A DNA stretch of 64,000 nucleotides, from the NCBI GenBank assembly GCA_013215385.1, contig JABSOY010000005.1, positions 248,001-312,000 on the forward strand. Reading direction: 5' to 3'. Both the position numbers and the translations under genes were made by a program. Numbering within the stretch: the stretch's first letter is position 1; every line of letters starts with the position of its first letter. This document shows positions 9,644-24,974 of the stretch, in pieces. The notes beneath the pieces are model-generated. The model did not search any database and had not been told where the DNA came from. It worked only from the letters and a program-made list of their open reading frames with translations. The stretch comes from Colwellia sp. (GTDB lineage Bacteria; Pseudomonadota; Gammaproteobacteria; Enterobacterales; Alteromonadaceae).

Positions 9644-10112
9644 TGTTGCTCAGTAAACTTAAATCCACCTAGGTTATCTTACTAGCATAACAAAAATCTA
9701 TTTATCAAAACATTACCATTAATTAATGTTTAAACTCATAATTTATAATTTACTATTAAAAACTTATTTGTTCTTTTTATTTAATATTTTTATCGGCGCT
9801 TTATAAATAGATTGCTGATAAAATTTTAAAAAGAGTGTACCAAAATAATGGAAAGTAATACCAATGCATGAGGTCAACCACTAAAGAAGTAACGAATAGC
9901 AGGCTAGTATTGCCAACAGGGCACAGGCTTAACTCAGCTATAGCTAAATTTGACGGGCGTATGAAATGTAGAAAGATTAATTGTACCCTATGTTTTCAAG
10001 CCTATTATTTTCTCATCGTACCGTTAAAATAAGAGTTGAAAACTAACAATTTTAGTTATTCATAAAAGTGCAATAAAACTCCCTTAAACTCTAAAGATTA
10101 AGGAGTACAGCC
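9644..10112. other. Gene-free region between response regulator and EAL gene
   Basis: 469 nt of very AT-rich sequence holding the divergent promoters of the response regulator and the EAL gene. I find no ORF with a ribosome site and no RNA gene. The AAGGAG ribosome site of the EAL gene is at 10100-10105. Confidence 0.5.
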
Positions 10113-10910
10113 GTGCAACATAAACTTTTAGACATTATAAAAAACAAAGCCATTACTACGGTTTTTCAGCCTATATTTAATGTGCAAACAGAAACTATTC
10201 TTGGTTATGAGGCATTGACTCGTGGCCCTAATAATACCGAACTGTATTCACCTGACAAACTTTTCCATTATGCAACGCAGTATGATTTATTATCCGAGTT
10301 AGAAATATTGTGCCGAGATAAAGCGATTACTCGTTTTGCAGAGTTAAAGTTGCAAGGTAAACTCTTTCTAAATATCAGCCCTTTAGTCTTATTAAATAAC
10401 CATCATCCACAAGGCGAAACGATAAAATTTGTTCAGCAGGCAGGTCTAAGCTGCGACCAAATCGTCATCGAACTAAGCGAAAAATACCCAGTCCCCAACA
10501 ATACTATGCTCAGTGCTGCTTTGGCTAAATATCGCCAATTTGGTTTTGATGTCGCTATAGATGATTTAGGTTCAGGCTATTCAGGATTAAAATTATGGAG
10601 TCAGCTAAGACCTGACATTGTGAAAATAGATCGATATTTTGTCGAAAACTGCCATCAAGACAGTTTTAAGCGAAAATTTCTTAAAGCAATTTTTGACTTA
10701 GCACAATCGGCAAAAGCGCAAGTGGTTGTTGAAGGTATTGAAAACATAGATGAATTTGAATTATTGCAAAGGTTAGGCATGGTTTACGCACAAGGCTTTT
10801 ATTTGGCGAAACCAGTATTGGCACCAGCCAGAGCTTACCCCAAATACCTTGATGCTAACTATCAACACAACACACTTCCGGATAAGTTAAAATTTATAGC
10901 TAACGGTTAA
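10113..10910 (+). CDS. EAL-domain cyclic-di-GMP phosphodiesterase
   Basis: 265 residues, GTG start with AAGGAG 7 nt upstream. The protein is almost only an EAL domain. The signature reads YEALTRGP. Metal and catalytic residues are present in LFLNISP, VIELSEK, IDDLGSGYSG, DIVKIDR, VVVEGIEN, and AQGFYLAKP. With these residues intact, hydrolysis of cyclic-di-GMP to pGpG is expected. There is no sensor domain or membrane segment, so control is probably transcriptional. A perfect hairpin overlaps the stop codon. It sits next to, but points away from, the two-component operon. Confidence 0.93.
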   Translation: MQHKLLDIIKNKAITTVFQPIFNVQTETILGYEALTRGPNNTELYSPDKLFHYATQYDLLSELEILCRDKAITRFAELKLQGKLFLNISPLVLLNNHHPQGETIKFVQQAGLSCDQIVIELSEKYPVPNNTMLSAALAKYRQFGFDVAIDDLGSGYSGLKLWSQLRPDIVKIDRYFVENCHQDSFKRKFLKAIFDLAQSAKAQVVVEGIENIDEFELLQRLGMVYAQGFYLAKPVLAPARAYPKYLDANYQHNTLPDKLKFIANG

Positions 10911-10930
10911 GTAAGGTTGCACTTAACCGT
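10903..10930. terminator. Hairpin between EAL gene and convergent peptidase gene
   Basis: ACGGTTAAGT pairs perfectly with ACTTAACCGT across an 8-base loop. The stem includes the EAL stop codon, and TTTT occurs shortly after on the plus strand. It probably serves both convergent genes. Confidence 0.65.
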
Positions 10931-10938
10931 ATATGCTT

Positions 10939-11916
10939 TTATTGATGTGTTAAGCACCAAAAACTAAAGGTATTAGCTTTTAAGTCTGAGCTATTATCTG
11001 TTTGGCTCGTTGAGTATTTACCGGTAAAAAATTCGTAGGGCATATAGCAATAACCTTGGTCGCCAAATTCTTCTCCCCATGAATTCCTAACGATGAAATG
11101 TTTCTTGTCATCATTATAACCTACGGCTAATAATGCATGACCACCGAGCCTTGCTTCATCAGGGTTTGGCATAGTTACTACACCACTGGCGGGGGTTAAA
11201 TAAAAGCTTTTCGGTACCATCATGCCAAAAATAAACGGCATCCCTTTTGACAAAGCTAGCTTAAGTTCAGTAAGTTCGTCATCAAGTGTTAACTTACAAT
11301 AACGACTGATAATATGCTTTTGGGCTTGTGTAATGGCCTGTTTAGAAGGGGTTTCGGTAATAGCCGCCTGAATTTCGGCTTCGTGCTCTGTTAACACTCG
11401 CGTTAATTCGCTTTGTATTTCTGCCATGGTGCCGTTAGCTACGATGGTTTTTAGGCTTTTTGGCAGCAACATCTCAGGATATGGCCATGATTTTTCCGAA
11501 CAAATACCATTTTTAAATAACGATTTTATGCCATTGCGAATATATACAGGTGCATTTATATCTATTTTGTCTTCCATAACGCGTTCATTGTAATAAATAA
11601 ACATTTGTGACGCGTCGATATTACTCGCATTTTCATCGATAAAGGGTTGTGAATCTCTAATTAAATAGAGTTCAGAGGCCACCGCAATCGCACACGCTGA
11701 ACACGAATTAAGTAAACCTTGATTGATTATTTCAGAGGTCAGTTTTTCACGTAAATCTATTTTAGTTAAGCTATGTTCAGCTATTTTTTGTTTAGTCTCT
11801 ACGGGGCAATCAATGTGGCAGTAGTCTGAAGAGTTGCCACCGTGAATATCACAAAATTGATGATCGCGATGATCATGAGTATCAGGTTGAACGGTTCTTT
11901 GATGTAAGGCTTCCAT
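10939..11916 (-). CDS. Cytoplasmic papain-like (C1 family) cysteine peptidase of the RiPP locus
   Basis: 325 residues. The papain signature is recognisable as INQGLLNSCSAC: Gln66 (oxyanion hole) and Cys72 (nucleophile) have the papain Q19/C25 spacing. His260 sits in GGHALLAVGYN and Asn278 in FIVRNSWGEEFGDQGY, completing the triad. There is no signal peptide. Secreted papains have one plus a propeptide, so this enzyme should act in the cytoplasm. The first 40 residues are rich in His, Asp and Cys (DTHDHRDHQFCDIHGG, DYCHIDCP) and look metal-binding. It is divergent from the radical SAM gene, with only 71 nt between them, which suggests a role in processing the modified peptide, for example leader removal. 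That role is inference. Confidence 0.82.
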   Translation of the reverse strand: MEALHQRTVQPDTHDHRDHQFCDIHGGNSSDYCHIDCPVETKQKIAEHSLTKIDLREKLTSEIINQGLLNSCSACAIAVASELYLIRDSQPFIDENASNIDASQMFIYYNERVMEDKIDINAPVYIRNGIKSLFKNGICSEKSWPYPEMLLPKSLKTIVANGTMAEIQSELTRVLTEHEAEIQAAITETPSKQAITQAQKHIISRYCKLTLDDELTELKLALSKGMPFIFGMMVPKSFYLTPASGVVTMPNPDEARLGGHALLAVGYNDDKKHFIVRNSWGEEFGDQGYCYMPYEFFTGKYSTSQTDNSSDLKANTFSFWCLTHQ

Positions 11917-11987
11917 ATCTTTACTTTACTTTGTTAAATAATAACGATTAATCAACATACAATATTTATCTCGTTAGGTCGATACGA

Positions 11988-14027
11988 GTGTCGAAAGTTT
12001 TGTTATTTATACAAAAAATGACTAAAAGGAGCATGGAGTCATTTTACTTGCTAGTATGTCAGTATCTTCATTTTTCTAAGACTATTTATTTCATGCCATC
12101 AACTATCTATTTGATCAATATGCCTTATTCTTCAATTACTCTACCTTCTTTAGCGTTGGGACTTATTGAAAACTATATTAATAAATATGGCCACCAGGTT
12201 GAAACGATATATGGCAATGTTGAATTTTCGACTAAACTGGGTCTCGAACTTTATGCTCAAATAGACAACTCTTTTTTTGAGCATCTTATTGGTGAATGGA
12301 CATTTTCGCGTATCGCCTTTCCAGAAAAAAAGTTAAACGATGAAGGTTTTTTTGCTTTATTTACTGACTTATCCGACACCATAAAAAAACAACTATTATC
12401 GACCAGAGATAAAGCTGAAAACTATATTCACGAATTAGCTAATCGTTTACTAGCGCAGTCGCCGAAAATTGTTGCTTGCACCTCTACCTTCCAACAGAAT
12501 TGTGCGTCATTGGCGCTATTACGCGTGATTAAAGAAAAGAATCATAGCGTAATAACCATGATGGGCGGGGCGAATTGTGAAGGCATTATGGGACAAACCA
12601 TTAGTGAATCGTTCTCATGGGTTGATTATATTTTTTCAGGTGAGTGCGACGACGTTATCGGTAAATTCATCGACAAGTTAATGAAGGATGAATTTATTGG
12701 TGCGCATAATTTACCGCATGGTTTCATTTGCCAAAGAAACGAGGATTTATTGCTTTCACAAAACGAATTATCTGCAAAGCCACCACGTGGTTATATTGAA
12801 GATATGGCTCAGGTTGGTACTCCTATTTATGACAGTTATTTTAGTACACTAAATGATTTGCAATTAACAGAAAAAATTAAACCTGGCTTACTCGCTGAAA
12901 CTTCTCGTGGTTGTTGGTGGGGAGCCAAAAAGCATTGTACCTTTTGTGGCTTAAACGGTGCGAGCATGACCCATCGTGCAAAATCATCAGAGGCTGTGTT
13001 AGCTGAATTTCAAGAACTCCATCAAAAATACAAGATTAATAAATTAGAAATTGTTGATAACATTTTACCAATGGAATACATGAAAACCGTTTTACCGGCA
13101 TTAAGTAAAGAAAAAAAATATAATATATTTTATGAAACTAAGTCTAACCTAAAAAAAGAACATGTCGCACAACTTGCAGAGGCAGGGGTAAAATGGATAC
13201 AACCCGGTTTTGAAAGCCTACACGACGATTTTTTAAAGTTAGTGGCTAAAGGTGCTACGGGTATTCAGAATATTTCAGCACTCAAATGGTGTTTGAATTT
13301 TGGTGTAAGGGTATCGTGGAATTTATTATGCGGTGCACCTAACGAGAAAGCCCATTGGTATGAAGAAATGGCAGAAATAATACCGCTTATTGTGCACTTG
13401 CAGCCGCCACACCACGAACTGATCAAAATACGCTACCCGCGTTTCAGCCCTTATTTTAAAGATCCTGAAAAATACGGTTTAACACTTGCGCCATTACAAA
13501 GTTATCAACATGTTTACCCTTTAACCGGTCAAGCCCTTGCTAATATTGCTTATTTTTTTGATGAAAAATCAACAAAAGAAAAAGATGTTTTTAGCCTAAG
13601 TGTGGGTAATGTTCATGAAGTAGCTGGCCATAAATTACTGCAAGAGCAAGTAACACAATGGTCACAGCAGTGGAGTAGTAGTGCCGCACCTTTACTCTAC
13701 ATGAGTGATCAAGATGAAAGTATTGTTGTTATTGACACCCGAAAGGTGGCAACTAGTTTTACCCATCAGCTAACGGGGTTAACGGCGGTCATATATCGAC
13801 TATGCGAAGAGCCAGTATCAAAAAGCCGTTTGGTTAACAAACTAATTAAACTCGGACTTTCTAGTGATAAAATTGAAGTAAACGAAGCATTAGAAATTTT
13901 AGTGAAGAATAAGTTGTTGTTATCGTTAAGTAACTGCTATTTAGCCTTGGCATTAAAAGGGCCAGCGCCAGCGTTGCCTGAGACTAAAGATTACCCTGCA
14001 GGGTATTTAAATTTTAATGGCAACTAA
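11988..14027 (+). CDS. B12-binding radical SAM RiPP-maturation enzyme
   Basis: Up to 679 residues. The N-terminal part has the cobalamin-binding-like fold (YLINMPYSSITLPSLALGLI start, VACTSTFQQNCASLALL, MMGGANCEG). The radical SAM core carries RGCWWGAKKHCTFCGLNG, with cluster cysteines 309, 317 and 320. This is the CX7CX2C spacing that marks the 'RiPP maturation radical SAM protein 1' family, not the classic CX3CX2C. The C-terminus (about 580-665) is a winged-helix, RRE-like region. B12 radical SAM enzymes often methylate unactivated carbons. Start is uncertain: GTG at 11988 gives the longest form, but the family usually begins near MPSTIYLINMPYSS (12093). Confidence 0.88.
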   Translation: MSKVLLFIQKMTKRSMESFYLLVCQYLHFSKTIYFMPSTIYLINMPYSSITLPSLALGLIENYINKYGHQVETIYGNVEFSTKLGLELYAQIDNSFFEHLIGEWTFSRIAFPEKKLNDEGFFALFTDLSDTIKKQLLSTRDKAENYIHELANRLLAQSPKIVACTSTFQQNCASLALLRVIKEKNHSVITMMGGANCEGIMGQTISESFSWVDYIFSGECDDVIGKFIDKLMKDEFIGAHNLPHGFICQRNEDLLLSQNELSAKPPRGYIEDMAQVGTPIYDSYFSTLNDLQLTEKIKPGLLAETSRGCWWGAKKHCTFCGLNGASMTHRAKSSEAVLAEFQELHQKYKINKLEIVDNILPMEYMKTVLPALSKEKKYNIFYETKSNLKKEHVAQLAEAGVKWIQPGFESLHDDFLKLVAKGATGIQNISALKWCLNFGVRVSWNLLCGAPNEKAHWYEEMAEIIPLIVHLQPPHHELIKIRYPRFSPYFKDPEKYGLTLAPLQSYQHVYPLTGQALANIAYFFDEKSTKEKDVFSLSVGNVHEVAGHKLLQEQVTQWSQQWSSSAAPLLYMSDQDESIVVIDTRKVATSFTHQLTGLTAVIYRLCEEPVSKSRLVNKLIKLGLSSDKIEVNEALEILVKNKLLLSLSNCYLALALKGPAPALPETKDYPAGYLNFNGN

Positions 14028-14123
14028 GATTATTGTTATCTATTAAAGTAAATAACCGCCTTAAATATTTATCAACTAAAATACCTAAGGCTCTTTTGCA
14101 TATGACTAACAATGTCTGGATAT

Positions 14124-14816
14124 TTAAACTGCATTCGCTAATTTAGTGGGAGCAGATTTACAAATATCATCAACCATCAAGGCACTGTAACGAAATGTTT
14201 GAAATGCTGTCATTTCTATAATTCTTAAATGCTGCTCAGTAAGCGGTAAATTATTGATTAAATTTTTAATATCTTGCCCGTGAGCAATATCTATACGAGA
14301 GTGCATTAATATAGTGTCAAATGCTTTGGCAGGCAGGTTTGAGTCTTTAATCATGTCTTTAACAAACTGTTCTGACGATGGGTAAGTTTCAACTGAGCCC
14401 ATATACCCCAAGAAGGCAACGGGGTGATAATGTTTAAGCCAATAATAAACAGAGCCTATCATTGCCGCCGTATGAGGAGAAGGGATACGATTAACAATAT
14501 CATTACGACTAAAACCAAGCACTGCGAGATCATCAATATACCATTCATCGTGATCTGTTTCTTCTGCGATATGTTGCTTCATATATTTGATTAAAGGTGC
14601 ACTTATGGGATCATTAGGCAATTGTTCTGAACACCGTACTACTTCTTCCATCATCGGCACGGTTGCTCTTGCAACACTTTGGTTCATATAAATATATTCA
14701 CTAATAAGTGATGGGAATTCAGAGTGGTTTCTAAATTCATTAAAAGCATTAAATGCTTTTAAACGCATAAAGTGTACGCTTTTTTCAATGCGCTCAAAAT
14801 GAGTTGGCTGAGTCAA
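14124..14816 (-). CDS. Heme-oxygenase-like di-metal oxidase of the RiPP locus
   Basis: 230 residues, TTG start with AAGGAG 7 nt upstream. All-helical, with the ligand pattern of heme-oxygenase-like diiron oxidases (HDO; UndA/BesC/CADD relatives): Glu57/Glu58, His82, Glu85/Glu86 and His89 (HIAEETDHDEWYIDDL), Glu143, and His172-Asp176-His179 (HSRIDIAHGQD). Annotators often call these 'iron-containing redox enzymes'. Known HDOs use O2 for C-C or C-N cleavage, hydroxylation or desaturation. It lies 84 nt downstream of the candidate precursor gene on the same strand, behind a terminator, and is convergent with the radical SAM gene. A second tailoring step on the peptide is inferred. Confidence 0.8.
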   Translation of the reverse strand: MTQPTHFERIEKSVHFMRLKAFNAFNEFRNHSEFPSLISEYIYMNQSVARATVPMMEEVVRCSEQLPNDPISAPLIKYMKQHIAEETDHDEWYIDDLAVLGFSRNDIVNRIPSPHTAAMIGSVYYWLKHYHPVAFLGYMGSVETYPSSEQFVKDMIKDSNLPAKAFDTILMHSRIDIAHGQDIKNLINNLPLTEQHLRIIEMTAFQTFRYSALMVDDICKSAPTKLANAV

Positions 14817-14850
14817 TTTTTAACTCCTTAAAGATGATGGGATTTTAATC

Positions 14851-14883
14851 AAAAAAAAGTTGATGTTACTTTATAACATCAAC
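14851..14883 (-). terminator. Perfect intrinsic terminator between precursor and oxidase genes
   Basis: On the minus strand GTTGATGTTA pairs perfectly with TAACATCAAC around a 5-base loop, followed by eight T residues. It sits in the 84-nt gap after the 57-residue peptide gene. Partial read-through would give much precursor mRNA and little enzyme mRNA, the usual RiPP arrangement. Confidence 0.9.
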
Positions 14884-14900
14884 CTGAAATCAATAATAAA

Positions 14901-15074
14901 TTAAAATATTACGCCTGTGGTAGAAGGAACATCTTTTAATTTTTCGGAGATATTGATGGCATGTTTTACTTCTTCTTCGGATAAACTTTCTATCGCTTTA
15001 ATATTGTCATCATTTAGCTGTGTTTTATCTAAAACTTTAGCGTTATGTAATTTATCGGTATTAGGTGTATTCAT
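14901..15074 (-). CDS. Candidate RiPP precursor peptide, 57 residues
   Basis: The ATG is preceded by an AAGGGA ribosome site. The peptide is acidic and charged over most of its length (for example NIKAIESLSEEEVKHAINI, predicted helical, leader-like). It ends in the short uncharged tail DVPSTTGVIF. There are no cysteines, so lanthionine, sactipeptide or heterocycle chemistry at Cys is excluded. The likely core is the Ser/Thr/Val/Ile-rich tail. The gene has its own terminator and is followed by the di-metal oxidase. Its distance from the radical SAM gene is under 1 kb. I know no named family for it. That it is the substrate is inferred from position, size, terminator and leader-like composition. 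Confidence 0.68.
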   Translation of the reverse strand: MNTPNTDKLHNAKVLDKTQLNDDNIKAIESLSEEEVKHAINISEKLKDVPSTTGVIF

Positions 15075-15324
15075 GGTATTTCCCTTATTAAAATTTAAAT
15101 TGTTAAAGTAATTTTAACCCATTGTCTTTAATCACTTTAATTAAAAAGTAATTATGACTAGAGTAGTACTGTGATAATTGAACATCAAGGTATATTTAAA
15201 AAATAATGCATAAATAACAATTATACTTTGTTTGCTTCTTACTATTCGTTACTATTATTTTATTCGCATTTAAATAATTCAAAACGTTGAACTATTTTTC
15301 CCAAAACAAAAAGAAATTAAAACA

Positions 15325-18300
15325 ATGAAATTTATTTTTTGGATTGTATTTTGTTTATCTTCATTACCCAGCTTGGGGAAAGATTATAATGATTTTAATC
15401 AACTCTCAGTTGAAAATGTTGTAGAACTCGTTTCTACAAAAAGTATTTTAAAAGATAAGCAAGGTTACATGTGGTTTGCTACTGAAAACGGTTTAAATCG
15501 TTACGATGGTTATCAGCTGAAAACATTCCGTCATGAGCCCAATAATAACCACTCAATATCAAATAATTGGATTACATTCATATTTGAAACTAGGCAAGGG
15601 GTGTTATGGCTTGGGACTTCAAATAGCGGCATAAATATTTTTGATAAAAAAACTAATTCGTTTCGTAAATTCAAATATTCCCCAACGGATACTTCCACAA
15701 TCACAAAAGGATCTATAAATAATATCTTCCAAGATAGTAACGGTATTATATGGATAGCCACTACCACTGGTTTAAATAAATACGACTCAGACAAAGGGAA
15801 TTTTCAACGCTTTGTTCATCAAGAAAACAAGCCAAACAGCCTAGCTCATAATAATGTTAGTAATATAATAGAAGGAAAGAAAGGTGTTTTATGGCTTTCT
15901 AGTAAAGCAGATGGACTGAATCGGTTTGATACTCAAACAGAAAACTTTACTTATTTTTCGGAAAATAAAGAGTTTAATAACAACTCAGATAATGAAAGTA
16001 ATGCTTTATTAAAAGTATCTTCTGATGAATTTTGGCTCGGAACACCGGCAGGAATAACAGTATTTAACCCGATTATTGAAAAGTTTGTTCACTCATTGGT
16101 TCTTCCAGCAAACCACTTAAAGATTAATAGTCTTTATCAAGACAGTAATAGTGATATATGGATCGGAACCAATAACGGTTTATATCAATATAATATTCAA
16201 TCTAAAACATTTTTACATTATATTGCTGAAGCAACTAATCCCAATAGCCTAAGTAAAAATATTATTTCTTCTATTTATGAAGATGATAATAAAACCCTTT
16301 GGATAGCGACTTGGGATGGAGGGATTAACCGGTTCAATATTGATGGTTACAAGTTCTCTACGGTAAAAAATAATACTCAACTCAGTAATACTCTCAGCGA
16401 AAATATGATTTTTTCTCTGTCTGAATTTCAGGACGATTTATGGATTGGCACCTTCGGTGGAGGGGTTAATATACTAAATAAAAAAACCAAGGTTTTTTCT
16501 TTTTTGAATAACAAAACTTCAGATGAGCATAGTTTAAGTGGTGACTTAGTGCTGTCTGTTTTTCATGAAAAAAATAATATTACTTGGATCGGTACTTCTG
16601 GAGCAGGGCTCAATAAGTACAATCGAAAAAGTGATGAATTTACGGTATTCACAAATAAAAAAGATGATAAGCAAAGTATTAGCAATAACAGCATTTTATC
16701 TATTGATAAAGATAACAACGGAGACCTTTGGTTTGGTACTTGGGGAGGGGGCGTAAATAAATTTGATGAAGCAAGTCAAACTTTTTTACAGTTTAAGCAC
16801 GACGATAATAATACTAGCTCTTTAGCTAATGATATTGTTTGGGACATATATCGCGATAATAAAGATCGACTTTGGTTTGCTACTAATGATGGTTTAAGTC
16901 GTTATGAACCTAAATCAAAAGGGTTTACTAATTTCAAAAGTAATTCAAAAGATAACAACAGCTTAAGTAACAATACCGTACTAACCTTGCATCAGAGTTC
17001 AGATGGAATATTGTGGATTGGTACAGGTGGAGGGCTAAACAAGTACAACGAAAAGAATAAAACATTTACTCATTATCGTGAGACAAATGGCTTAGCCAGT
17101 GACACTGTTTACGGGATATTGGAAGATAATCAAGGATATCTCTGGATAAGCACCAACAAAGGGATTTCGCGCTTTAATCCTCAAACCGAGGTGTTTAAAA
17201 ACTATGATGTGACCGACGGTTTACAAAAAAATGGATTTAATGGCGGTGCATACTTTAAAAGTAAATCTGGTGAATTGTTTTTTGGCGGTACTGATGGATA
17301 TAACCACTTTTATCCTGAAAATATTAAAGACGATACCACTTTGCCTAACATCGTTTTAACCGATTTTAGAGTCCATAATATGCCGGTAAGCCTCAGACAA
17401 AGTGAAACCAATACTACTGAATTTACTATTGATACAGTTATTAATGAATTAAGCGTATTAAACTTAACCCATAACGAAAAACTGATTTCATTTGAATTTT
17501 CCGCTTTACACTTTGCCGAGCCAATAAATAATAAGTACGCTTATATGCTAAAGGGCTTTGATGAAGATTGGGTTTATACCGACGCAAAAAACCGTCGAGC
17601 AACTTATACCAATCTTCCTGCCGGTGATTATGTTTTTCATGTCAAAGCGAGTAACGGTGACGGTTATTGGGATGAACAAGGAAAATCGCTAAAGGTTACC
17701 GTATTACCTGCACCATGGCTTTCTTGGTGGGCGTTCACGCTTTATTTTCTTGCCTGTATTGGCGCATTGGTCACTTATATTTATCGCTTAAATTATCAAC
17801 GTTTAAAAGAGCAAGCGATTAATTTACGTTTAACCCGTGTCGATAAATTAAAAGATGAATTTTTAGCCAATACTTCCCACGAGTTACGTACACCATTAAA
17901 CGGTATTATTGGTTTGGCCGAGTCGTTAATTGACGGTGTCGCAGGCGAGTTACCGGATAAAGCCAATCATGATTTATCTATGGTAGTGGCAAGTGGCAGA
18001 CGTTTGTCTAATTTAGTTAACGATATTTTAGATTTTTCTAAATTAAAAAATCATGGTTTGGAAATTCAGACTAGCGCTATTGATATTAACAGCATGATTG
18101 ATGTGGTTTTTACGCTTTCTCGACCTACGTTGCAAACAAAAAACTTAAGTCTAATTAATAATATACCGAATGATTTCCCGATGGTGAAAGCCGATGAAGA
18201 TCGTTTGCAACAGATCCTTTTTAATCTTATTGGTAATGCAATTAAATTTACTCAATCAGGCTCTATTACTATCTCGGCACATTTAGTTGGCAATAGTGAA

Positions 18301-21300
18301 AATAATGAACAAGAATTTGTTTGTGTAGATATTACCGATACTGGCATCGGGATAGCGATTGAGAATATTACAACTATTTTTGAATCATTTGAACAAGTCA
18401 GTGGTAATGAAGCCCGAAGTGAAAGTGGTACAGGTCTAGGTTTAGCGGTAACCAAACAACTTGTTGAACTACACGGGGGTAAAGTCACTGTCAGTTCAAA
18501 GCCTAACATAGGCAGTACTTTTAGCTTTACTTTACCGATTTATGTAATCGATGATAGCGAGGAAAATGAATTTTCGAGTACTATAAACGGTATTAGTGAA
18601 CGCACTAAGCAGCAATTGTCTCGGTTACAGACGTTAGATGACACCGTGGACTATTTCCCTGTTGAAGAGAGCGAAAATAGCTACCTTGTAGACGAAAATA
18701 GAAACGCAAAAAATCGTGACTTTAGGGTGTTAATTGTCGATGACGATCCTATTAACAGGCAAGTACTTAATAACCATTTATTTCCCCTTGATTATACGTT
18801 ATTCCAAGCCAGTGGCGGTGAGGAAGCATTAAACATTATTAGTAAAGCGAGCGAAGGATTAGCGGATGGAGAGCGTCCGTTTGATTTGATCTTACTCGAT
18901 ATTATGATGCCCAAAGTCTCTGGTTATGAAGTATGTAGAAAACTTCGTGAAAAATATTCAGTAAATGAATTACCGGTAATTTTCTTGACGGCTAAAAATC
19001 AAGTTGTCGATTTAGTTGAAAGCTTCTCGTCTGGCGGTAACGATTACCTAACCAAACCTATTTCAAAGCATGAGCTTTTATCTCGGGTAGAAACTCACCT
19101 AAAATTATTGGATATCAACCGTAGTTTAGAACAAAAAGTGGCTGAACGTACCGAAGAGCTTGAACATGCCATGCAAGCTAAAAGTGAATTTTTAGCGAAA
19201 ATGAGTCATGAAATTCGCACGCCGATGAATGCGATTATAGGATTAGGCTATTTAACTCTAAAAACTGATTTAGATAGAAATCAAAAGGATTTAATAGAAA
19301 AAACCCAAGATGCTTCGCAAGCGTTATTAGGCTTGATTAACGACATTCTCGATTTCTCTAAAATTGAAGCCGGTAAGATGACAATAGAGTCTGTGACAAT
19401 GAATATGGGTGGATTGATTAAGAAAACGAATAATATTTGTGCGTTACGTGCCCATGCGAAAAATTTAGAACTCATTGTTAAAGTGCACAGTAATGTACCC
19501 AAGCAAATAAAGTCTGATCCAATACGTTTACAGCAAATTCTCGTTAACCTGGTCAGTAATGCAATTAAATTTACTGACCAAGGCCACATTCTTATAGAAG
19601 TAGGTTTAGCTGACAAGCAAGTAGTGGATGTAGGCAGCAAGCAATTAACCTTAGAATTTAGTGTCACAGATACTGGTATTGGCTTGGCTGAGTCGACAAT
19701 GAGCAACCTCTTCCAGTCTTTCACTCAGGCCGATAGTTCAATTACGCGAAAATTTGGAGGTACAGGCTTAGGTTTATCCATTTGTAAGGAGCTTAGCGGC
19801 TTAATGGGCGGTGAAGTTTGGGTTGAGAGTAAATTAGGTGAAGGCAGTAAATTTAGTTTTAATATCGTTTGTGAAGAAGTTATTTCACCTATTAACGATA
19901 TAACTAATACTTCAGCAATTAAAGGCTTGAATGTCTTAGTTGTTGACGATAATAAACTTTGTCTGAATGTTATTACAGAATTATTACAAGAATTTGATTG
20001 TGAAATTACCGCTGCTGACAGTGCCAAAACTGCACTAAATTTGTTATCCGAAACCAAGAAAAATAATCAAGCCTTTGATTTGGTGATAACTGATTGGCGG
20101 ATGCCAAAAATGGATGGCATAGCATTTGCAAAAGCCATTCAAAGCGATACCAATCAATACGATATTCGAGCCGTATTAATGGTAACCGCCTTTGATAAAA
20201 ATGACGTTATGCCATTAGCCCATTCTGCTGGTATTGACGGCTTCTTAGAAAAACCAGTAAATGCAACTTTGCTGCTTGAGTCGATGATGGATGTGCTGAA
20301 AATTGATCCCGATGAAGACTTCTATAGTATGAAAAATGCCAGCTTAATGGATTTTTCAACGGCGGACATATTATTGGTTGAAGACAACGAACTAAATCAA
20401 CAAGTCGTGCTAGGGTTTTTAGAAGATACCAAAGCAAAAGTTGACGTTGCCAATAATGGTTTGGTTGCGTTAGAAAAACTTGCTGACAAAAATTATGATC
20501 TTGTGCTAATGGATATACAAATGCCTGAAATGGATGGAGTAACCGCGACACAAGAAATTCGGAAACAAGCTAAGTATAAGGATTTACCGATTATTGCTAT
20601 GACCGCGCATGCGATGCCCGACGAGCTTAACAAGTGTTTAGAAGCGGGCATGAATGAATACTTTACTAAGCCTATCGATCCCAATGCTTTATTTAGCTTA
20701 ATGGCAAGATATTTAAGTGATAAAACTCATGGTATTCAACGAGAAACAGATGTATCTGAATTAACAATTGTTGAGCTTGAAAAACCATTGATGGAGCGTA
20801 TTACCGATTTAGGTTGCTTAGATAGTGAGAAAGCATTGGCGGCAATGGGTGGACGTAATCACATATATGAAAAACTTGTCATAGATTTTTGTGCTACTAC
20901 TCAAGGATTTAATAAGCAAGTTCAGCAAGTCTATCAGGATAAAGACTTTGAAACCTTATATCGTATAGTACATTCTTTTAGATCTAATTCAGCTTACATA
21001 GGAGCACAGCGCTTAACTGAACTTTCGGCTGAATTAGAGCGTGCGATAACCACGCAACCCGAAACTATATTTTCTCTTCTTGATGCATTCACGGCTGAAC
21101 ATCAGCGAATACTTGACATTCTAGCCCATCTTACAGAAGTAAAAGATGCTAGGCTTGATAACGCACCCGCTAGTGAACCCGTTAACAAAGAGCTACTGAT
21201 AGTGCTGCTAAACTCTATTATTCATTTACTTGAACAAGAAGATGCAGAAGCAGAAGACTTACTACCGCAGTTACAAGAATTCACTAAAGGCACTGAGCAT

Positions 21301-21399
21301 AGTGAAAAGGCTGAGACCATTGTTGAGTTAGTTGAAGATATTGAATATGCTAGTGCTATAAAAAATATTACTCGTTTAAAAAATAAACTGCTCGCATAG
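15325..21399 (+). CDS. Giant hybrid two-component sensor with two kinase cores, three receivers and HPt
   Basis: 2024 residues. Order: signal peptide (1-19); periplasmic propeller of many WxGT..GGLN-type repeats (about 25-690); Y_Y_Y domain (about 710-790); helix (about 800-820); HisKA-1 with His852 ([12 protein letters not shown]) and ATPase; receiver 1 with Asp1192; coiled coil; HisKA-2 with His1295 ([12 protein letters not shown]) and ATPase; receiver 2 with Asp1590; receiver 3 with Asp1730; HPt with His1883 ([15 protein letters not shown]). Propeller/Y_Y_Y sensors commonly respond to polysaccharide breakdown products, but ligand here is unknown. It lacks the AraC output domain of Bacteroidetes versions, so phosphate must pass on, probably to the next gene. 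Confidence 0.95.
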
Positions 21400-21471
21400 T
21401 TCAACCTTAGCCTGACAGCTAAAGTAAATAATCTAACTCCAATAAAAAATATAAGATGTTACTGGCGACTA

Positions 21472-22383
21472 ATGAAAACTTTAGACCAAACAATTTTAAT
21501 TGTTGATGACGACAAGCCTAACCGTAAAATGCTCAAGGAATTATTGCAAGAGCAGGCAAAAATTATATTTGCTAAAAACGGTGAACAGGCGAAAAAACTT
21601 GCCCGAAAGCATCATCCTGATCTTATTTTGATGGATGTGATCATGCCTGATCTTTCAGGTTTTGATGTCATAGATACCTTAAAAAACGATGCTGAAACCA
21701 TGAATATATCAGTCATTTTTATCACAGGCCTGGCCAACGATGACGATGAAGCACGAGGTTTTGATCTCGGGGGCTGTGATTATATCTATAAGCCTTTTAA
21801 GTCTAATATCGTGATTGCACGAGTCATGATGCATTTGGAGCTTATTCGTCAGCGAAAATTGTTAGATGAGATAGCCCATATTGACGCTTTAACTGGGGTC
21901 AATAACCGTCGTAAAATGGACATCGTTTTAGCCGAAGAAGTCGATGTAAATAAACAGGAAAATACCAGCTTAGTCGTTGCTATTATTGATATTGATTTCT
22001 TCAAGCAATTTAACGACAACTATGGTCATGGTGCGGGAGATGTAGCCTTAAGACAAGTCGGGCAGGCATTGTGTGAAGTTTGTCAACGTCCTCGAGACTT
22101 TGTTGCCCGCTATGGTGGTGAGGAGTTTGTGGTTATATTGCCTGACTGTGATCAAGTTAACGCTGAAAATATACTTAATAATCTTACTCAAGCAATTGAT
22201 GATAAAATGATTAGGCATGAGTTCTCTAGTATATCAAAATTACTCACCATTAGTATTGGCGCAATTGTGGTTAAATCGTCAGTATCATCGTCGGTGGCTA
22301 ATATAATGAAACAAGCTGACAGCTTATTATATCAAGCCAAAAATAATGGTCGGGATCAATGGAGTATTGCAAATTTAATTTAG
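21472..22383 (+). CDS. Response regulator with GGDEF diguanylate cyclase domain
   Basis: 303 residues. The receiver (1-120) has VDDDKPNRK, phospho-acceptor Asp in LILMDVIMPD, and Lys in YIYKPF. The GGDEF domain (about 135-300) starts DALTGVNNRRKMD and has the active-site loop RYGGEEFVVILP. GGEEF is the catalytically competent form, so it should make cyclic-di-GMP on phosphorylation. There is no obvious RxxD inhibitory site (KNGRD is elsewhere). It begins 72 nt after the giant hybrid sensor and is the natural recipient of its HPt phosphate. Confidence 0.94.
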   Translation: MKTLDQTILIVDDDKPNRKMLKELLQEQAKIIFAKNGEQAKKLARKHHPDLILMDVIMPDLSGFDVIDTLKNDAETMNISVIFITGLANDDDEARGFDLGGCDYIYKPFKSNIVIARVMMHLELIRQRKLLDEIAHIDALTGVNNRRKMDIVLAEEVDVNKQENTSLVVAIIDIDFFKQFNDNYGHGAGDVALRQVGQALCEVCQRPRDFVARYGGEEFVVILPDCDQVNAENILNNLTQAIDDKMIRHEFSSISKLLTISIGAIVVKSSVSSSVANIMKQADSLLYQAKNNGRDQWSIANLI

Positions 22384-22458
22384 AAACTCTGCCTGAACAT
22401 TACCTTTAATCCAATATTTTACTAAGCTTAGTGCAATGTAATTAAACAGGATTGACCT

Positions 22459-23925
22459 TTGCCTAATTCAAGTAACAATCTATCTACTCATAAAGAAACC
22501 TCAGAAACTCAGCAGTATATCCGCCAGCTTGAGCAAGAACTCGAAGAAAGAAAACGCGCGGAAAAGCTACAACATGCCCTGTTTAAAATAGCCTCAATCG
22601 GTTACGACAATAATGATTTAAGTGCATTTTATGAAGAAGTTCATAAAATTATTTACGACTTAATATACGCAAAAAACTTCTTTATTGCCTTGTACGATGA
22701 AGAAAGCCAAAGTATTACCATCCCCTATTTTATTGACGAAAAAGATCAGCAGGGCTTCAAAGATAAAGTTTTACCTATTGGCAAAGGAGTAACGTCTTAT
22801 GTTTTAAGGACCAAAAAAGCGCAATTATTAAGTATTGCACAAGTAAATACACTTATTGATAACGGAGATATTGACGAGGTGCTGGGCTCTGCCGATTTTA
22901 AATCATGGATGGGGGCACCGATGATCTCAGCCAATTTTTTACATGGTTTGATTGTTGTACAAAGTTATGATGAAAATATTATTTATACGGATGATGATCT
23001 AAAGCTACTTAACTTTGTTGCTAAGCATGTCGCTAATGCGATTGAAACCGTAGTGAATACTATTCAGCGCAAAGAATCTCAATTAAAAATGGCAAAACAA
23101 CATAGGTTATTGGAGCAAAAAAATAGCGATTTGAACCATGTAATAGAACAACTAAAAGCTACCCAAAAAGAATTAATACAAAAGGAAAAAATGGCATCTT
23201 TAGGCGGACTTGTCGCCGGTATTGCTCATGAAATTAATACACCACTCGGTATTTGTGTGACAGGCGTCAGCCATCTACAAGAAGAGTATCGAATCATTAA
23301 ACAGGCAGTTGAAAGTAATACATTAACAGAGGAAAAGTTAATGGATTTCTTTGAGGACATTGAAGAAGTTCTTACCATTTTAGCAACTAATACTCAACGC
23401 GGTGCTTCATTAGTCAATAGCTTTAAGCAAGTAGCAGTAGACCAGTCTTCGAATGAAATCAGAAAAATAAACTTTCACCAATATCTCGATGAAGTTATTT
23501 TATCACTTAGGCCCACTTTAAAGAGGACACAAATTACCATTAAGGTCGATTGCGATGCGACCTTGGCTATTTCTGTAGATGCAGGAGCTATATCACAAAT
23601 ATTCACTAATCTCATTCTAAACTCGGTTAAGCACGGTTTCAGTCAAACCGCTAAAGGCTCAATACTCATTGAGGCCTATGAAAAAAATAATAATATAATT
23701 CTTCGGTATCGGGATGATGGTATTGGTATTGACGATAAAGCTTTAGGACTTTTATTTGAGCCTTTTTATACGACAAAACGTGGGGAAGGCGGCAGTGGTT
23801 TAGGGACCCATTTAGTCTATAATTTAGTAACTGGTTCACTGAAAGGAAAAATAACCGTTAAAAGCCAAGTCGGTAAAGGTTTAGCTTATTTGATTAAATT
23901 TCCTATTACAGGAGATAAATGTTAG
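22459..23925 (+). CDS. Soluble GAF-domain sensor histidine kinase
   Basis: 488 residues, TTG start with an AGGA ribosome site. A short coiled coil (QYIRQLEQELEERKRAEKLQ) leads to a GAF domain (about 45-195), then a second coiled coil. HisKA carries KMASLGGLVAGIAHEINTPL and the ATPase carries NLILNSVKHGF, RDDGIGID and GGSGLGTHLVYNLV. No membrane segment is present, so it senses a cytoplasmic signal. It follows the GGDEF regulator by 75 nt and probably forms a three-gene signalling operon with it and the hybrid sensor. The 3' end overlaps convergent degS by 4 nt. Confidence 0.92.
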   Translation: MPNSSNNLSTHKETSETQQYIRQLEQELEERKRAEKLQHALFKIASIGYDNNDLSAFYEEVHKIIYDLIYAKNFFIALYDEESQSITIPYFIDEKDQQGFKDKVLPIGKGVTSYVLRTKKAQLLSIAQVNTLIDNGDIDEVLGSADFKSWMGAPMISANFLHGLIVVQSYDENIIYTDDDLKLLNFVAKHVANAIETVVNTIQRKESQLKMAKQHRLLEQKNSDLNHVIEQLKATQKELIQKEKMASLGGLVAGIAHEINTPLGICVTGVSHLQEEYRIIKQAVESNTLTEEKLMDFFEDIEEVLTILATNTQRGASLVNSFKQVAVDQSSNEIRKINFHQYLDEVILSLRPTLKRTQITIKVDCDATLAISVDAGAISQIFTNLILNSVKHGFSQTAKGSILIEAYEKNNNIILRYRDDGIGIDDKALGLLFEPFYTTKRGEGGSGLGTHLVYNLVTGSLKGKITVKSQVGKGLAYLIKFPITGDKC

Positions 23926-24974
23926 TTGTTTCTCTTTTCAACTATGGTAACAGGAAGCTCTAATTGTTGCTTGTCTCTTAATAGTTTAAAAGACAAAGTG
24001 GTACCAGGTAGAGTGTCCGCTACGATGTCTAATGCATGAGTAAATGAAGTAATAGTAACTTCATTGATTTGATAGACAATATCATTTGCTTTAAGACCCG
24101 CTTTTTTGGCTGGACTATGTTCAGCGACACTGCCAATAGTAAAACCTTTTATTGTGTCTTGTAGTGAATGTACCGTAACACCTAAATAGCCACGTATGAC
24201 TCGACCATTAGCGATTATTTTACGCATCACTTTATGTGCAAGTGTGTAAGGAACAGCAAAAAATATTCCTTGAATCCTATTATTATTATTACTCGTATAT
24301 TTCTTTGAGTTAATCCCGACAAGTTCACCGTTAGTATTAATAAGCGCACCACCAGAGTTCCCCTCATTAATCGCCGCGTCCATTTGCAGTAACTCCAGAT
24401 AATTGATAACACTTAAACCACTACGACCGGTTGCGCTTATTACGCCTTGGGTAACAGTTTGGCCTAAATTAAACGGATTACCGATCGCTAGTACTACATC
24501 TCCAGCTAAAGACTGCAAGTTAGCTCTCTGGGGGATAACGGGTAAGTTAGTTGTTTCAACTTTCAATACGGCTAAATCGGTCTCATTATCAAAGCCGATT
24601 AATTCAGCCGAAAAATGTTGGCCATTTTGTAATAATACCGTAATTAAATCGGCATCTTCTACCACATGATAATTGGTCAAAAGGTAGCCCGCTGCATCCA
24701 TAATAACCCCTGAACCTAAACGAGTGGGTCTTCTCGCATTAGTGCCATATTTTGGGCTTGATGTAATTTCTTCCGAATAAATATTTACCACCGAAGGGCT
24801 AGCAATACTTACCGCTCTAGCATAAGACAAAGCTTGCTGCGGGGCTGAGCTATTTTCAAGTACTTGTAGGGTATTAGTGCGCCACTCGGGTATTAACAGT
24901 AGTAAAACTACAGCTATCATCACACCATAACTGGCTGGACGTACAATGTATTTTAGTAGATTGATTATTTTCAA
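23922..24974 (-). CDS. degS: Periplasmic serine protease DegS
   Basis: 350 residues: one N-terminal membrane anchor (about 11-29), a trypsin-like domain and a single PDZ domain. The triad is visible as His (LLTNYHVVEDAD), Asp (NETDLAVLKVE) and Ser (INEGNSGGALIN). One PDZ domain plus an uncleaved anchor separates DegS from DegP/Q. In gammaproteobacteria DegS is activated by unfolded outer-membrane porins and makes the first cut in RseA, releasing sigma-E. It lies downstream of degQ on the same strand, the usual order, but an intrinsic terminator separates them. Confidence 0.95.
   Translation of the reverse strand: MKIINLLKYIVRPASYGVMIAVVLLLLIPEWRTNTLQVLENSSAPQQALSYARAVSIASPSVVNIYSEEITSSPKYGTNARRPTRLGSGVIMDAAGYLLTNYHVVEDADLITVLLQNGQHFSAELIGFDNETDLAVLKVETTNLPVIPQRANLQSLAGDVVLAIGNPFNLGQTVTQGVISATGRSGLSVINYLELLQMDAAINEGNSGGALINTNGELVGINSKKYTSNNNNRIQGIFFAVPYTLAHKVMRKIIANGRVIRGYLGVTVHSLQDTIKGFTIGSVAEHSPAKKAGLKANDIVYQINEVTITSFTHALDIVADTLPGTTLSFKLLRDKQQLELPVTIVEKRNN

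Follow-up and report, generated by a model that had tools for sequence, protein, structure and literature searches.

Among described pathways for ribosomally synthesized and post-translationally modified peptides (RiPPs), that of the aminopyruvatides is, by analogy of function, the nearest known system to the locus analysed here. This locus lies in a 64,000-nucleotide stretch of a Colwellia sp. genome (GCA_013215385.1, contig JABSOY010000005.1, positions 248,001-312,000 of the forward strand; hereafter the window), and combines a 57-residue precursor peptide, a heme-oxygenase-like dimetal oxidase (HDO), a B12 radical SAM enzyme, a papain-type peptidase, and a hybrid sensor kinase. In the excerpts of the literature on which this comparison draws, the aminopyruvatide pathway includes ApyA, the MNIO ApyHI, the B12 radical SAM enzyme ApyD, a P450 and a methyltransferase, and the C-terminal Asp is oxidised and the penultimate Tyr C-methylated (PMC10635010). 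The likeness consists of a metalloenzyme acting on the C-terminal residue and B12 radical SAM C-methylation of a nearby residue, both of which are predictions for the window. In contrast to the MNIO and the conserved C-terminal Asp of the aminopyruvatides, the window locus has an HDO (PF14518) and a hydrophobic last residue (Phe, Leu, Ile or Val in 17/17 precursor units). Moreover, a P450 and a methyltransferase are not among its seven genes, and against the ApyD model the window enzyme gives only E 4.3e-12, which falls far short of the cut-off.

HDOs in RiPP pathways are nearly uncharted, and the one precedent met in the excerpted literature is VarO, which is needed to dehydrogenate the Arg of the RiPP-derived tripeptide in thiovarsolin biosynthesis (PMC6511847), the paper that a 2026 HDO review cites for ribosomal peptide modification (PMC13108848). 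VarO shares with the window enzyme its place as an HDO in a RiPP pathway, but the thiovarsolins involve YcaO/TfuA thioamidation and a repeat precursor, and their seven-gene minimal cluster, as given in the excerpt, is without B12 radical SAM enzyme, papain and kinase. MboA of mangotoxin biosynthesis has a six-ligand set corresponding to that of the window HDO and binds its peptide via the C-terminal carboxylate (PMC13185094); its substrate, however, is a ligase-made tripeptide and not a ribosomal precursor, and the sequence similarity is weak (E 0.0027). The RiPP loci of the rSAM_ocin_1 (TIGR03975) type resemble the window in their radical SAM enzyme, for which the window protein scores far above the family cut-off, but differ from it in that no HDO (E < 0.1) was found on the DNA examined in 38/38 more distant loci (L037-L074; L and G numbers denote loci and genomes, respectively). 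In the open-licence papers searched, partly as excerpts, neither a RiPP pairing an HDO with a B12 radical SAM enzyme nor the set of HDO, TIGR03975 enzyme, papain and propeller kinase was found described.

With respect to signalling, the ComQXPA system has a membrane sensor and a transcriptional output, and the variation of ComP lies in its sensor half. The excerpted account for Bacillus describes a peptide precursor, a modifying enzyme and a histidine kinase that are linked and highly polymorphic among close strains (PMC4408185). The window locus likewise links precursor, modifying enzyme and histidine kinase, and its sensor half varies with precursor and HDO while the kinase half is conserved (L022 versus L023, and window versus L030), but it belongs to a Gram-negative bacterium and carries an HDO and a B12 radical SAM enzyme, whereas ComQXPA is Gram-positive and relies on the isoprenyl transferase ComQ.

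The analysis presented here indicates that this gene set probably makes a chemically altered short peptide in some Colwelliaceae, which are marine bacteria, and the exchange of peptide gene, oxidase and sensor half as a block between close relatives suggests a peptide signal and its receptor.

Results

Gene content and co-occurrence

The original prediction comprised four genes, which are real, lie at the coordinates that it gave, and belong together: a papain-type peptidase (10939..11916, minus strand), a B12 radical SAM enzyme of the RiPP C-methyltransferase family (11988..14027, plus strand), an HDO with a 3-His/3-carboxylate ligand set (14124..14816, minus strand), and a 57-residue precursor (14901..15074, minus strand). 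While gene set and precursor held, the boundary was drawn too narrowly, and the gene next door for a hybrid sensor kinase of 2024 residues with a propeller (15325..21399, plus strand) and that for a REC-GGDEF response regulator (21472..22383, plus strand) had been overlooked.

Co-occurrence of the four families had been proposed as a check, and radical SAM enzyme, HDO, precursor and papain do occur together across genomes of the family. Related loci were gathered with the radical SAM enzyme as query, because a search with the HDO protein by itself returned no relative from genome contigs. At thresholds of E <= 1e-20 for the radical SAM enzyme and E <= 1e-40 for the HDO subfamily, the set of 147 family genomes contained the radical SAM enzyme in 14 and the precursor in 13 (G091 dropped); the HDO subfamily was present in 17/395 family genomes, 15 of which are within the 147. 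Radical SAM enzyme and HDO were found together in 14 genomes, HDO only in 1, radical SAM only in 0 and neither in 132 (Fisher p 1.1e-18), and HDO and precursor together in 13, HDO only in 2, precursor only in 0 and neither in 132 (Fisher p 7.5e-17), with both tests uncorrected for kinship. Papain was detected at E <= 1e-30 in 11/108 family genomes (the 108 taken as lying within the 147), all 11 of them precursor-positive, and in 15/15 precursor-positive genomes once G128, G130, G514 and G516 were added. Its intact copies are confined to precursor-positive genomes, and the precursor-negative G101 has a 79-residue remnant that falls just outside the threshold (E 2.1e-30). In genus g22 papain is absent from the locus and a 42-44% homologue is located elsewhere in the genome in 5/5 tested; G514 additionally retains a remnant in the locus. 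By eye, no second precursor was seen around the stand-alone papain of three g22 genomes, whose neighbours were not searched against families. The radical SAM gene of G039 lies ~80 kb from the precursor locus.

G029 and G073 (81 and 87% complete) have HDO and radical SAM enzyme with a different precursor, an open reading frame (ORF) of 86-94 residues that adjoins the HDO gene and matches the NHLP-clan model NF038399 below cut-off; papain was not found in these two genomes. A second, NHLP-like precursor type, which ends in RTSLKIT and is paired with an HDO of divergent sequence and a radical SAM enzyme from the same family, was seen at L028:2869-3910 and L029:3696-4706; neither of these two genomes yielded a papain.

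Beyond the family, 369 genomes of the class gave 33 with the HDO profile (E <= 1e-15) and 7 with TIGR03975 (E <= 1e-60), which overlap in the window's own genome only, so the 6 other TIGR03975 carriers have no HDO at that threshold. Among 299 genomes of the phylum, the HDO was found at E <= 1e-22 only in the window's own genome. The whole set is present on a 5.1-kb contig labelled Flavobacteriaceae (L036), which may be mis-binned.

The precursor and its oxidase

The comparison covered 17 precursor-HDO units at 15 loci, after omission of duplicate genomes or identical units (L031, L032, L034, L035, L145/L162 and L083/L132). HDO is located 0-92 nt downstream of the precursor in 17/17 units. In ten pairs of precursors the nonsynonymous divergence (dN) was 0.04-0.27; the synonymous divergence (dS) could be computed for seven of the ten, giving values of 0.19-2.5. 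With dN far below dS, the gene is under purifying selection and the ORF is beyond chance, and what had been put forward as a candidate is a true precursor. The leader spans residues ~1-50 and is followed by a C-terminal core ending in STTGVIF; the codons of its last four residues, Gly-Val-Ile-Phe, lie at 14904..14915 (minus strand). Besides Met1, the residues Asn5, Leu9, His10, Lys17, Ile28, Leu31, Ser32, Glu35 and Gly54 are invariant in the first 14 rows, and all 17 precursors stop three residues past Gly54 with Gly-x-x-(Phe/Leu/Ile/Val), the last residue being Phe in 4, Leu in 7, Ile in 4 and Val in 2. This conserved end is short, hydrophobic and Cys-free. Matches to the NF045560 'aroma-sacti' leader domain were below cut-off for the window precursor (E 0.004) and its L036 homologue (E 5.4e-5), and the latter also matched a StsA-related model (E 0.058). 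Weak precursor matches in G091 and on contig 91 of G069 fall within ORFs of 359 and 377 residues (by eye a receiver-domain protein and an ATPase) and were not counted. The loci L163/L020 and L027/L035 contain two precursor-HDO units each, and those of the L020 pair end in Phe and Ile, matching their HDO types.

The HDO assignment, already made in the original prediction, is borne out by a PF14518 match of 45.9 bits (cut-off 28.9), a heme-oxygenase-like helical fold, and the residues E86, H89, E143, H172, D176 and H179, which are invariant in 16 aligned rows, the window included. The ligand set is also supported by alignment to MboA, in which the ligands are E86/H89/E143/H172/D176/H181, with an Asp after His89 (PMC13185094, in excerpt). 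MboA is not among the 50 structural matches listed by VIA-align for the HDO, which was not counted as counter-evidence, and neither HDO nor precursor matched PHROGs. The enzyme is predicted to activate O2 at a di-metal site. MboA, with which it shares the six-ligand set, grips its peptide through the C-terminal carboxylate, and by analogy oxidation here likely takes place at the precursor's last residue.

The distribution of last residues over the HDO tree is in line with this assignment. A branch separates each of the Phe, Leu and Ile/Val classes from all other units (100/99, 70/86 and 99/99 support, respectively), and the class requires 2 changes, a number as low in 0/200 shuffles. Columns 42, 84, 93, 168 and 171 of the HDO alignment split Ile/Val from Leu/Phe units without exception, and all but column 42 lie within four residues of a metal ligand; by themselves such columns prove nothing, because Ile/Val versus Leu/Phe is one deep split. 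With the last four residues left out, the precursor tree joins L020b (Ile) and L027b (Leu) with 98/97 support, and a single Ile/Val clade is rejected on it (p-AU 0.011). It might instead be that the HDO modifies an internal residue of the core, so that the tail is merely a handle and its agreement with HDO clade reflects recognition. RiPP enzymes can in principle recognise a tail without reacting at it, and the invariant Gly at -4 could be a reactive or docking site; we nevertheless consider an internal site rather unlikely, as four of the five splitting columns adjoin ligands and the substrate itself is a ligand of Fe1 in MboA, AetD, UndA, HrmI and PolF, according to the excerpts of PMC13108848 and PMC13185094.

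Exchange of precursor, oxidase and sensor as a block

The kinase consists, by Pfam, of ten Reg_prop repeats, Y_Y_Y, two HisKA/HATPase units, three REC domains and Hpt, with a signal peptide and a transmembrane stretch recognized by eye. The gap between its start and the precursor, which is on the opposite strand, is 251 bp, and the divergent arrangement holds at 14/14 loci with a full kinase (13 distinct, L030 and L162 being one species), with gaps of 118-281 bp, including G039 and G130. In L017 and L132 the kinase is in the same place, cut or broken by the DNA end.

The comparison of L022 with L023 gave 87-90% DNA identity over 16 kb (L022 3242-19495) and 85% over positions 1-348. Between these flanks a first BLAST search returned nothing and a second one 68% piece (427-724, in HDO). 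The replaced stretch takes in HDO, precursor and the first 605 codons of the kinase; the cores are KPVGIGI (L022) and PGVGIML (L023), and the kinase halves are 97% identical, as opposed to 26% for the sensors over residues 25-600 and 42% over 25-780. The L022/L023 sensor was replaced and did not merely evolve fast, because L023 and L025, which share the same core, give 82% for the kinase half and 79% for the sensor. Similarly, the window and Colwellia DT_21 (L030) have flanks of 77% (10060-14017) and 73% identity (17060-24048) with one 84-bp match between them, and the replaced block (14018..17059) comprises HDO, precursor and the first ~578 kinase codons. On one side the replaced block thus stops within the kinase gene at about codon 580-605, and on the other it reaches just past HDO. 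Over 13 loci, to which the two-unit L163 and L027 each contributed their first unit alone, sensor and HDO correlated given kinase identity (partial Mantel r 0.55, 3/5000 permutations), as did HDO and precursor (r 0.57, 2/5000).

The radical SAM enzyme, the papain and neighbouring features

As originally proposed, the radical SAM enzyme belongs to a family known for RiPP maturation: it covers TIGR03975 from model position 1 to 606 of 606 at 660.7 bits (cut-off 281.85), and its CX7CX2C cysteines (Cys309/317/320) are invariant in 18 rows. Membership of this B12 C-methyltransferase family makes C-methylation its predicted reaction. A cobalamin-radical SAM fold is supported by its top structural matches, OxsB, TokK, AprD4, TsrM and CysS; the Pfam B12-binding match is only E 0.059, and the PDB sequence search gave weak matches only. 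The protein may start at ATG 12093 rather than GTG 11988, because the alignment of most relatives begins no earlier than residue 35-40, and that of a few at 3-21. A RiPP recognition element-like C-terminus is plausible, not proven, from AlphaFold secondary structure and a sub-threshold Lant_dehydr_N match (E 0.004). The unit of G130, a genome with no radical SAM match, ends in GAPF and is the sole one of 17 with Ala after Gly, a single case which hints that the residue after Gly may be the radical SAM site. In distant phyla, L038, L047, L053, L054, L057, L061 and L062 carry two to five TIGR03975-type radical SAM genes per stretch.

The papain matches PF00112 (C1; E 2e-13), and its predicted catalytic residues Cys72, His260 and Asn278 as well as Gln66 are kept in 14 other aligned papains, one of which is interrupted by N and was read as two pieces. 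By eye the protein has no N-terminal signal peptide, as had been noted, and it is likely the leader peptidase.

A terminator-like hairpin of 13 pairs and a T run (14857..14885, minus strand) lies in the precursor-HDO gap. It is one of 4 such sites in 14050-15400 (0.6 expected), with a fold z of only -1.63; the corresponding hairpins are stronger in L017 (z -4.6) and L020 (z -3.9), and the L087 hairpin does not stand out from shuffled sequence (z -0.84). The REC-GGDEF assignment rests on Pfam, an RYGGEEF motif and a close homologue that adjoins the kinase in relatives. On the other side an EAL phosphodiesterase (PF00563; 10113..10910, plus strand) adjoins the papain and is common to L130 (88% identity) and L162 (84%). 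Two neighbours were not taken as pathway genes: a 712-residue protein in four loci, which is a polynucleotide phosphorylase, and a 320-residue protein with a SAM decarboxylase match below cut-off.

Discussion

The sequences show the genes together with their co-occurrence, co-variation and block exchange. In the pathway proposed from them, whose chemistry, step order, export and sensing are inferred, the 57-residue precursor would be made in the cytoplasm. The di-iron site of the HDO would bind its free C-terminal carboxylate and oxidise the last residue (Phe in the window), the reaction most likely beginning at the C-beta hydrogen and leading to desaturation or oxidative decarboxylation to an enamide; hydroxylation is less likely. 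The B12 radical SAM enzyme would methylate a residue close by in the core, at an unactivated carbon, and papain would take off the leader. The short, hydrophobic, Cys-free product could then exit the cytoplasm by an unlinked route and reach the divergent hybrid kinase, which would sense it with its periplasmic propeller and through its phosphorelay feed the REC-GGDEF protein and hence cyclic di-GMP (c-di-GMP). Precursor, HDO and propeller would form a single specificity cassette, exchanged in one piece. Taken whole, from chemistry and release to sensing and c-di-GMP output, we regard this reading as evenly balanced between right and wrong.

Several observations weigh against it. As a fold match to the HDO, UndA is hardly better than true heme oxygenases and TenA; the L022 HDO has a long branch and its placement is unsure; and the two independent contrasts offered by the leader tree both follow HDO type but are too few for significance. 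G130 has HDO and precursor with no radical SAM match at E <= 1e-20. At E <= 1e-150, 6/16 genomes with the kinase are precursor-negative, four of them without precursor (G025, G101, G080, G107) and two with another one (G029/G073). L157 and L158, neither of which gave a precursor match, have kinase halves that are 90% and sensors that are 44% identical, so that the sensor varies without peptide. L161 ends in PGVGIML and has an HDO 83-85% identical to those of L023/L025, with a sensor only 33% identical. The partial correlation of sensor with precursor is weak (r 0.31, 303/5000), and block exchange alone is no proof of function, because linked genes recombine together. Finally, no exporter or immunity gene was found by family searches among the seven genes of 10.1-22.4 kb (genes further out were only partly searched), in agreement with the original prediction, which had seen no exporter.

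The precursor-less kinases, the L157/L158 sensors and the L161 mismatch between core and sensor would be expected if the kinase were unrelated to the peptide, a long-standing divergent neighbour with a hypervariable propeller that recombination around the central divergent promoter carries along. However, the adjacency at 14/14 loci extends to G039 with its distant radical SAM gene and to G130, and the replacements end within the kinase gene and just outside HDO. Moreover, L157 (G101) probably had the cluster and then lost it, because the papain remnant adjoins its kinase; in L158 no trace of a cluster was found. An unrelated kinase is in our judgement rather improbable. Sensing of the product by the kinase stands at about even, because of the L161 mismatch, the precursor-less kinases and their sensor variation, and the joint recombination of linked genes. 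Upstream of the papain remnant, where L157 lacks the RiPP block, L157:3236-5423 contains by eye a DUF692 (MNIO)-like enzyme, a partner protein and a DoxX-like protein.

The product might also be an antimicrobial or anti-competitor compound, with the kinase as autoregulatory or stress sensor and a block that varies as such compounds diversify. Some lantibiotic kinases are known to sense the product of their own system, and HDO-precursor block and sensor vary strongly among close relatives, but the missing immunity gene and exporter, the nature of the conserved end and the REC-GGDEF protein as linked output gene make this explanation unlikely. Least probable, and to our mind very unlikely, is that papain is a target or self-resistance copy for a protease-inhibitor peptide rather than the leader peptidase: the alkyne product of MboA is a proposed electrophilic warhead, and such a group at the end of a short hydrophobic peptide could make it an inhibitor of cysteine proteases, but papain occurs in 15/15 precursor-positive genomes and not in G029/G073, as a maturase predicts, although a target copy would look alike.

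Returning to the RiPP pathway with its own sensor, a more specific version can be put forward as possible but tentative: a Gram-negative pherotype, in which the HDO-oxidised RiPP, perhaps as a decarboxylated, membrane-permeant enamide, is the dedicated ligand of the c-di-GMP-controlling propeller kinase, and dialects change by cassette exchange. An uncharged, membrane-permeant enamide would explain the missing exporter. The match between HDO clade and last residue makes the reaction site directly testable by point changes. Should the kinase read the product, the locus would represent a gammaproteobacterial signal made of a modified peptide, wired to c-di-GMP and with specificity cassettes that can be exchanged.

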